Shown: positions 31,372 to 32,047 of the stretch, one piece after another
Layout of the letters: the number at the start of each line of letters is the position of its first letter
Position numbering within the stretch: the first letter of the stretch is position 1
NCBI GenBank assembly: GCA_031268855.1
Contig: JAIRWS010000035.1
Coordinates: forward strand, 1-32,047
Length of the DNA: 32,047 nucleotides
Reading direction: 5' to 3'
Source: Candidatus Margulisiibacteriota bacterium
GTDB taxonomy: Bacteria; Margulisbacteria; Termititenacia; Termititenacales; Termititenacaceae
Notes under the pieces: generated by a model
What the model saw: the letters and a program-made list of their open reading frames with translations, nothing else
What the model was told of the DNA's origin: nothing
The model's database searches: none
Made by a program: the position numbers and the translations under genes

Positions 31372-31544
31372 AGTGCGCCTGACACGAGGACTTACGTCGT
31401 CTACTCCGTAGACTCGTAGGTCTCACTTCACGTCGCTCCTTTCAGTCACTTGTGAAGTTCGACACGCGCTCCGCGCTTGTGCTCCATCAGTGTTAGGGAG
31501 ACATTCTGTTCACTTAAATAACTAAAGAAAGATACGATGAAAAA
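31371..31544. repeat. tRNA-tail hairpin repeat, unit A, carrying an extra ~71-nt palindromic segment
   Basis: The unit begins AAGTGCGCCTGACACGAG, identical to the tRNA-Arg 3' region (minus strand). It closes as a hairpin with GTGTTAGG (31490-31497) and ends with a conserved tail to GATACGATGAAA. Compared with units B and C it holds about 71 extra bases (about 31393-31465) made of two palindromes: GTCTAC/GTAGAC, and ACTTCAC/GTGAAGT. Confidence 0.75.
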
Positions 31545-31634
31545 AAGTGCGCCTGACACGAGGACTGCGCGCTCCGCGCTTGTGCTCCGCCAGTGTTAGG
31601 GAGACACTCTATTTACTCAAACAACTTATAATGT
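31545..31634. repeat. tRNA-tail hairpin repeat, unit B
   Basis: It has the same start as unit A, then GACTGCGCGCTCCGCGC, TTGTGCTCCGCCAGTGTTAGG and GAGACACTCT. It then diverges into AT-rich sequence before the tRNA-like pseudogene. Confidence 0.75.
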
Positions 31635-31657
31635 CTAATGACTTTGATTTATTGATA

Positions 31658-31792
31658 GGAGTCGAACATGCGACATCCAGCTCCGGAGGCTGACGCTCTC
31701 TCCACTGACCAGAACTTAACAAGCATACGAAGTATGCGAAGTTAAGTGAGGGTAACAAGCCCACGCAGTGGGCGCCGTTTGCTACAGGCGCA
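31658..31792 (-). pseudogene. tRNA-Arg (CCG) pseudogene split by a 72-nt insertion
   Basis: On the minus strand the 5' end GCGCCTGTAGC (31792-31782 region) matches the intact tRNA-Arg at 31924-31996. After the insertion (31780-31709) the match resumes at TCAGTGGA and runs through the anticodon arm with CCG to TTCGACTCC. The 3' T-stem and acceptor strand are replaced by unrelated AT-rich sequence, so no cloverleaf can close. Confidence 0.8.
31709..31780. mobile_element. 72-nt double-hairpin insertion inside the tRNA-Arg copy
   Basis: It contains a nested hairpin CTTAAC/GTTAAG enclosing GCATAC/GTATGC, and a second, GCCCAC-GCA-GTGGGC. It joins the tRNA sequence with no base lost (CACTGA before, GCTACAGG after). 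It has no open reading frame. The size is close to that of the extra segment in unit A. Confidence 0.6.
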
Positions 31793-31816
31793 GAAAAAGA
31801 ATATTATGATGAAACA

Positions 31817-31920
31817 AAGTGCACCTGACACGAGGACTGCGCGCTGACGCGCTTGTGCTCCATCAGTGTTAGGGAGACATTCTGTTCACTTAAACAACTA
31901 AAGAAAGATACGATGAAACA
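31817..31920. repeat. tRNA-tail hairpin repeat, unit C (104 bp, complete)
   Basis: AAGTGCACCTGACACGAG is followed by GCGCGCTGACGCGC, then GTGCTCCATCAGTGTTAGGG and the tail CACTTAAACAACTAAAGAAA, GATACGATGAAAC. The next copy of the start motif is the 3' end of the intact tRNA-Arg. CCTGACAC and GTGTTAGG pair as an outer stem, and GCGCG/CGCGC forms an inner one. Confidence 0.8.
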
Positions 31921-31923
31921 AAG

Positions 31924-31996
31924 TGCGCCTGACACGAGTCGAACGTGCGACATCCAGCTCCGGAGGCTGACGCTCTATCCACTGAGCTACAGGCGC
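31924..31996 (-). tRNA. tRNA-Arg (CCG anticodon)
   Basis: On the minus strand the acceptor GCGCCTG/CAGGCGC, D-arm GCTC-AGTGGATA-GAGC, anticodon stem TCAGC/GCTGG with loop CTCCGGA (anticodon CCG) and T-arm GCACG-TTCGACT-CGTGT all fold. The 3' CCA is not encoded (A then CTTTG), unlike tRNA-Trp at 3246. Confidence 0.93.
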
Positions 31997-32047
31997 AAAA
32001 GACAATCAAGTTTATCATGAAAATGTATTGGCATAAACAACACTGCC

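Follow-up and report, generated by a model that had tools for sequence, protein, structure and literature searches.

Introduction

Large integrative elements classically land in transfer RNA genes, where they usually occupy the 3′ end and carry an integrase. In the uncultured genus of termite-gut symbionts studied here, such genes harbour small, non-coding repeats of hairpin form in the D arm, in the T loop and at the CCA end. The closest described systems are small palindromic repeats, among them the REP elements of the GTAG and CGTC super-families (Di Nocera et al., 2013, PMC3733652). REPs and BIMEs are short, multi-copy palindromes that lie for the most part between genes, frequently close to a gene's 3′ end, with compensatory variation in their stems and with some copies lying inside other palindromes, all of which holds for the present element. 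PMC3733652 also summarises Rickettsia palindromic elements (RPE), likewise small palindromic inserts tolerated inside genes. Miniature elements derived from IS200/IS605 (PATEs) and RAYT-mobilised REPINs share with the present element hairpins near both ends on one strand and the lack of a target duplication. Fungal mitochondrial double-hairpin elements consist of two adjacent GC-rich stem-loops, are thought to be mobile (Paquin et al., in PMC4618339, PMC10085805) and are mainly intergenic with some in RNA genes, as here. Dada transposons are comparable in their site-specific insertion into tRNA and snRNA genes (PMC3706591).

The window analysed here is a stretch of 32,047 nt, positions 1 to 32,047 of contig JAIRWS010000035.1 (assembly GCA_031268855.1, genome G000 below), from a Candidatus Margulisiibacteriota bacterium.

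Results

A double hairpin interrupts a second tRNA-Arg copy

An intact tRNA-Arg(CCG) gene (GCGCCTGTAGCTCAGTGG), called by ARAGORN and scoring 64.8 bits with Rfam RF00005, is accompanied in the window by a second, truncated copy that is cut between tRNA positions 11 and 12 (11|12) by an insert of exactly 72 nt, termed E1. The features concerned are as follows.

31709–31780, plus strand: E1, the 72-nt double-hairpin element; its structured strand is the plus strand of the window, antisense to the tRNA
31709–31752, plus strand: hairpin A (alpha module, 44 nt), matched by the family covariance model R1 and showing covariation
31753–31780, plus strand: hairpin B (beta module), a shorter version of the AAG/CGNN core, partially matched by R1
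31781–31791, minus strand: 5′ part of the interrupted tRNA-Arg, positions 1–11 (GCGCCTGTAGC), identical to the intact tRNA
31659–31708, minus strand: remainder of the interrupted tRNA-Arg, positions 12–61, with a broken T stem and without the acceptor 3′ strand
31923–31996, minus strand: intact tRNA-Arg(CCG), the functional neighbour and empty-site reference

The minus (tRNA) strand reads GCGCCTGTAGC, insert, TCAGTGG in that order, and the joined flanks differ from the intact tRNA at one of 23 nt, with neither loss nor duplication at the junction. The joined host copy corresponds to tRNA positions 1–61 with two mismatches (positions 20 and 53) and diverges thereafter, so that its T stem and 3′ acceptor strand are gone. 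The preliminary description had placed a 72-nt insert with two hairpins at these positions, had stated that the flanks rebuild the intact tRNA-Arg with nothing lost or duplicated and had noted that the host copy lacks its 3′ half-stems, and each of these statements was confirmed, both hairpins folding strongly relative to shuffled sequences as DNA and as RNA. As single-stranded DNA, the plus strand of E1 folds at −15.6 kcal/mol (z −3.8), which none of 200 shuffles equalled, and as RNA at −28.5 (z −3.9).

Hairpin A has the layout NNN-GA-ACTTAAC-AAG-(hairpin CATAC GAA GTATG)-CGAA-GTTAAGT-GA-N′N′N′ and scores 63.6 bits with R1, partly by construction, as E1 is among the 30 sequences from which R1 was built. 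Hairpin B gives a weaker match to the R1 core (31754–31779) of 25.2 bits, a value within the 17–27 bits reached by coding coincidences in viral contigs. E1 thus resembles a tandem pair of variants of a single motif, AC-AAG-(hairpin)-CGNN-GT, which is common to both hairpins. Given the R1 score and the recurrence of the element at the same position of other tRNA genes, E1 is far beyond chance.

The element belongs to a dispersed, structurally conserved family

The window region has 27 matches in its own genome. Reading of the genome was confined to matched stretches, and the recurring module in these is NNN-GA-ACTTAAC-AAG-(variable hairpin)-CGA(A/C)-GTTAAGT-GA-N′N′N′; at many loci the shorter form AC-AAG-(hairpin)-CGNN-GT comes next. 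Across 30 distinct copies of the larger hairpin, a 44-nt module with 16 base pairs, 10 of the 16 pairs were changed on both sides and 95.8% of cells were paired; cells changed on both sides numbered 73 compared to 22 in shuffled sequences, and covariation was 0.43 compared to 0.15 when shuffled and at most 0.05 when slid.

R1 detected 70 copies in the window genome, 87 in G001, which we equate with T. aidoneus on the grounds that its contigs and matches coincide with the BGZN records of that species, and 38, 4, 64 and 29 in four further genomes of the genus (G002–G005, respectively). The sister genus holds 28 and 15 copies in its two genomes, and a search of 47 other genomes of the phylum returned none. 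A strict pattern matched 15 times in the window genome and never as a reversed control, and the named records that it retrieved were Candidatus Termititenax and termite-gut Margulisiibacteriota, plus four stray unrelated contigs. As far as searched, the family is therefore restricted to the family of Termititenax (Margulisiibacteriota). Carriage by phages was considered and rejected: seven viral contigs match the short pattern, of which six look like coding coincidences (24–27 bits) and the seventh is only a weak 17-bit match. Rfam gave no match for the element, either in the window or across 12 loci. None of the papers searched gave an account of repeats in Termititenax; to judge from these, this two-hairpin DNA repeat of about 70 copies, which lands cleanly in intergenic DNA, is a previously undescribed family, although an earlier mention, for instance in the original genome paper of the lineage, is possible.

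Copies of the module occur in several other settings. In 38 distinct copies (e.g. L048, L078, L107 and L123), the 44-nt module lies at the centre of long palindromes (GAATATTTTGCC..GGCAAAGATATTC, roughly 100 nt), whose outermost arms vary by copy and pair almost perfectly. Longer inserts with an additional middle domain around GCTGGCTCGGTCAGCCAGC are found at L004, L007, L008, L122 and L183, and at L007 one element copy is nested inside another. In a paralogous ORF family (L019, L020, L047, L106 and L110), the C-terminus is encoded in frame by the module, stop codon included (..FYLNLTSDSEVK*), and at L058 a copy begins at the apparent groEL stop codon. Direct repeats of 20–25 bp (AAACTTC..TTTTTTGCC) border the copies at the loci scored, L027 and L039; the element is contained in the first unit, an arrangement also seen at the tRNA loci. 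L085, which in G001 is orthologous to L039, looks similar.

Copies recur at fixed positions of tRNA genes

Of 24 strict-pattern matches in the window genome, 12 have a tRNA gene no more than 500 bp away (expected fraction 0.022, tail 3e-14), as do 9 of 24 in G001. Across several genomes, 12 element-bearing tRNA copies are all interrupted at 11|12 and represent seven isoacceptors, Arg(ACG), Arg(CCG), Arg(TCT), Gly(CCC), Gly(GCC), Met and Thr(CGT); their joined flanks equal the intact tRNA with 0–3 mismatches in 23 nt, and the inserts measure 60–72 nt, except for one of 131 nt. A related hairpin insert occurs at 11|12 of Arg(CCT) as well, and inserts in tRNA-Cys and tRNA-Gln lie one to three positions earlier. 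Further copies were found in the T loop (Gly, and Arg-ACG in L063), in the variable region of tRNA-Cys (L181) and directly 3′ of the discriminator base. In the T loop and at the 3′ end, it is the tRNA strand that carries the structure, and in the D arm its complement, so that the element has no fixed orientation with respect to the tRNA.

Element-bearing 3′ ends at L125, L138 and L149 (Val-GAC, Ala-GGC and Tyr) have no encoded CCA, which their empty orthologs carry. Upstream of tRNA-Asn, tRNA-Phe and tRNA-Thr (L126, L130, L131, L159 and L164), tandem units of 99–105 nt consist of tRNA positions 1–11, a simple hairpin and a promoter-like stretch; this stretch is common to different tRNAs, and the 1–11 part always matches the host tRNA.

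The upstream partial tRNA copies carry a hairpin almost without exception, and this near-universal presence counts against a mobile reading, since nothing in simple insertion into an existing duplicate calls for it. The element might instead be a functional structured RNA or regulatory element beside tRNA genes, such as a 3′ trailer, attenuator or processing signal, kept by selection and not mainly mobile. The strong covariation of the module fits such a role, as do the proximity of half of the strict-pattern copies to tRNAs, the upstream units with their own promoter-like sequence and the orthologous tRNA-Gly(GCC) units of three genomes, in which the inner stems differ and pairing is near-perfect. 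However, orientation varies, D-arm copies being antisense and those in the T loop or following the 3′ end sense; many copies are distant from tRNAs or within other palindromes; presence differs among orthologs; the structure persists in the window even though the tRNA copy there is dead; and Rfam holds no matching family. We consider a mainly functional, non-mobile role unlikely.

Filled and empty sites are clean

Two paralogous stretches of G006 (L260 and L119), about 88% alike, differ by one element copy: the empty site reads TTCAGT|CTCTCTG and the filled site TTCAGT-CGAACTTCAC..GACGTGTAC-CTCTCTG. Downstream of tRNA-Thr(CGT), the site is filled in the window genome (L131), whereas the ortholog in G007 (L209) and a paralogous stretch of the window genome (L153) are empty. 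At tRNA 3′ ends, the Ala(GGC) site is filled in G000 and empty in G001; the Val(GAC) site is filled in G000 and G001 and empty in G007; the Tyr site is filled in G000 and G001 and empty in G007 and G004; and the Lys(CTT) site is filled in G007 and empty in the others compared (G000, G001 and G004). The right edge at these 3′ ends is less certain, because a conserved CRAGTTT follows in many copies. No target duplication was found at the filled/empty joins, where 0–2 nt are lost. A long target-site duplication, raised by repeats of the form X-element-y-X, was rejected, as the element lies inside the first copy and no such duplication is present at tRNA 3′ ends, at L260 or at the second element copy of the window (E2, below). 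A further candidate pair, L243 and L121, was also rejected, the supposed empty site being a truncated copy.

A second copy lies in an array of tandem tRNA units

The E1 locus is a tandem array of partial tRNA copies, in which E2 provides a filled site within the window. The preliminary description had noted neither this array nor E2, nor the large family to which E1 belongs. The units are as follows.

31835–31938, minus strand: tandem unit (direct repeats), the tRNA-Arg 3′ end plus about 85 nt, ending in the hairpin GAG-C-AC-AAG-hp-CGCA-GT-C
31563–31834, minus strand: tandem unit (direct repeats) holding the E1-bearing tRNA copy
31389–31562, minus strand: tandem unit (direct repeats) holding E2 and abutting the 3′ end of mfd
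31391–31464 (about; the right edge is uncertain by a few bases), minus strand: E2, second element copy, in the last 3′ tRNA unit; R1 scores 59.9 bits at 31420–31463

Two of the tandem 3′ tRNA units run uninterrupted from the hairpin through GCGCGCAGTC to CTCG, whereas the third has 70-odd nt of element (E2) at that spot. At 31389–31938 of the window and at L126, L138 and L192, tandem units consist of a tRNA 3′ end and a hairpin, the outer arm of which is complementary to the T-stem 3′ strand of the same tRNA; tRNA-Asn has three such units consecutively downstream. Positions 31929–32047 of the window and 1–119 of contig C68 of the same genome are common contig ends, apparently an assembler overlap at the tRNA-Arg repeat, and the number of tandem units in the window may thus be mis-assembled.

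Such arrays bear on a further explanation, in which the hairpins and inverted flanks would be made in place by fold-back template switching as the DNA replicates and the tandem tRNA copies by slippage, with no dedicated enzyme. The number of the roughly 100-bp tandem units differs between species, outer arms are sometimes reverse complements of the local target (GGC-GTA..TAC-GCC in tRNA-Cys and GGAC..GTCC at the tRNA-Asn 3′ units), and the outer stems of the long palindromes differ yet pair well. A constant 44-nt module at 70 unrelated sites of one genome would, however, need donor copying, and the filled and empty sites are clean, which makes an origin in place improbable.

Small circular cassettes, integrated site-specifically at tRNA segments in the manner of integrase att sites, could alternatively have left the tRNA-linked copies as relics. 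Intact tRNAs are often flanked by tandem partial copies, with 5′ pieces upstream and 3′ pieces downstream, and the T. aidoneus locus resembles a tRNA-carrying cassette inserted at 11|12. We regard cassettes as quite unlikely, since units of roughly 100 nt are too small for an integrase gene and the element also occupies sites other than tRNAs.

The insertion probably precedes the split from T. aidoneus

In G007, of the sister genus, the only tRNA-Arg(CCG) gene is bare and differs in its acceptor stem. T. aidoneus (L180) has a newer tRNA-Arg, then the element at 11|12 of an older-type gene, then mfd; its interrupted gene has a body of the G007 (ancestral) type and is full-length, with a 4–69 acceptor mismatch. 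Gene order in the window is the same, the interrupted gene being shorter and 3′ units having been added, and the stretches read in G004 and G006 have no interrupted copy. As the T. aidoneus ortholog has the element at the same spot, the insertion probably predates the split from the window genome. Between these two genomes, the outer stem of E1 has changed (TTAAC, TTCAC) and its partner has changed to match, so that the structure was kept although the tRNA is dead.

The acceptor is of the GCGGCTA type in G007 (L206), a chimera in G006 (L262) and of the GCGCCTG type in G001 (L180), G004 (L261) and G000. By these sequences, tRNA-Arg(CCG) has been replaced or recombined in the lineage. Decay of duplicated genes after insertion gives a continuum of remnants, from 6 nt to full length; it does not account for the near-perfect preservation of tRNA positions 1–11.

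The T. aidoneus locus also bears on whether E1 could be an intron, or an excised intervening sequence of a functional interrupted tRNA. The joins are exact and the rest of the T. aidoneus tRNA is almost intact. However, the T. aidoneus copy carries the 4–69 mismatch and has an intact tRNA adjoining, and the window copy stops at position 61 with a broken T stem and no acceptor strand, which argues that E1 is not an intron. Furthermore, no curated family of group I or II introns or of known ribozymes in Rfam matches, and the same element is found outside tRNAs. The intron reading, which the preliminary description had already thought less likely, is thus highly improbable.

Discussion

Considering these results, we propose that the insert is probably a copy of a dispersed, palindromic, non-coding, REP/MITE-like family of mobile repeats, and that the insertion, into a redundant tRNA-Arg(CCG) gene that has decayed since, took place in an ancestor shared by the window genome and T. 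aidoneus; from the sequences compared, we give these two statements jointly a probability of roughly 0.7. The preliminary description had suggested a tiny palindromic mobile element and a search for further copies and their target sites, naming a lack of other copies and of consistent boundaries as grounds against it. About 70 copies in the genome, further copies in relatives, fixed tRNA boundaries and clean filled/empty pairs now speak for that suggestion.

The unit, a tandem pair of hairpins that share one motif and one strand, would have inserted cleanly between positions 11 and 12 of the redundant gene. The lack of a target duplication, the hairpins near both ends on one strand and the conservation of structure over sequence fit transposition as a folded single strand. 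By analogy with IS200/IS605-type elements and REPs, it is possible, if somewhat short of an even chance, that the element moves in this form and is cut and joined in trans by a hairpin-recognising enzyme. The sole Y1 transposase gene found is a RAYT (NCBIfam NF047646, cut-off 80 bits), with one gene each in G000, G001 and G006 (81.2, 78.9 and 81.4 bits, respectively); none was found in the other five of the eight genomes, four of which are incomplete. RAYT was rejected as the carrier, as R1 finds no element copy flanking it at the three loci (L198–L200). At these different loci, the single-copy RAYT is surrounded by repeats of the GGGACAGGCA/TGCCTGTCCC type, which also occur inside an apparent miaA in L200. 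No fixed target tetra- or pentanucleotide was found 5′ of the left end, where the best flank position reached 0.69 bits, and copies away from tRNAs had no strand bias relative to GC skew (42 vs 37, p 0.65).

More speculatively, and we think this unlikely, the family might represent a new class of bacterial mobile element, in which folded, single-stranded hairpin units would recognise tRNA genes by shape and enter at the fixed points 11|12, the T loop or the CCA end, the reaction itself would include tandem duplication of the neighbouring gene segment and so always leave an intact tRNA, and the enzyme would be one as yet undescribed for such elements. The arrays are a natural record of tRNA gene duplication, breakage and replacement. 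In addition, the filled and empty sites make the movement of REP-like palindromes, a long-open question, directly testable.

Comparison with known systems

The element is, like REPs, a palindromic repeat in many copies (70) with complementary, covarying stem changes. The unpaired GTAG or CGTC tag that REPs have at the hairpin foot is missing from most copies: a loose test placed GTAG, GGAG or CGTC no more than 6 nt from the left foot in 17 of 138. Also unlike REPs, it is a two-hairpin module of 60–74 nt with AAG/CGNN and GA/GA internal loops, and it is inserted repeatedly at fixed tRNA positions, a habit without mention in the sections of PMC3733652 consulted. A RAYT gene, as for RAYT-mobilised REPINs, is present in three of eight genomes and is not flanked by the element. 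As in IS200/IS605 miniature elements, no target site is duplicated and a hairpin lies near each end on one strand; the fixed tetra- or pentanucleotide target of those elements is absent. Because the element fails the REP tag test and the RAYT-flank test, we treat it as a new family of its own, outside the REP and IS200/IS605 groups. An origin as a MITE of a DDE transposon was rejected, since clean junctions show no target duplication and each hairpin is its own palindrome, the two ends not being mutual inverted repeats. The element differs from RPE, compared by description only, in that its notable targets are tRNA genes, and from Dada in that Dada is a eukaryotic DDE transposon that encodes a transposase and makes target duplications of 6–7 bp (PMC3706591). 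The fungal double-hairpin elements differ in being mitochondrial and are compared here by architecture only, as given in the papers cited. Taken together, the element works like REPs or like the miniature elements derived from IS200/IS605, and it bears a resemblance to fungal mitochondrial double-hairpin elements.
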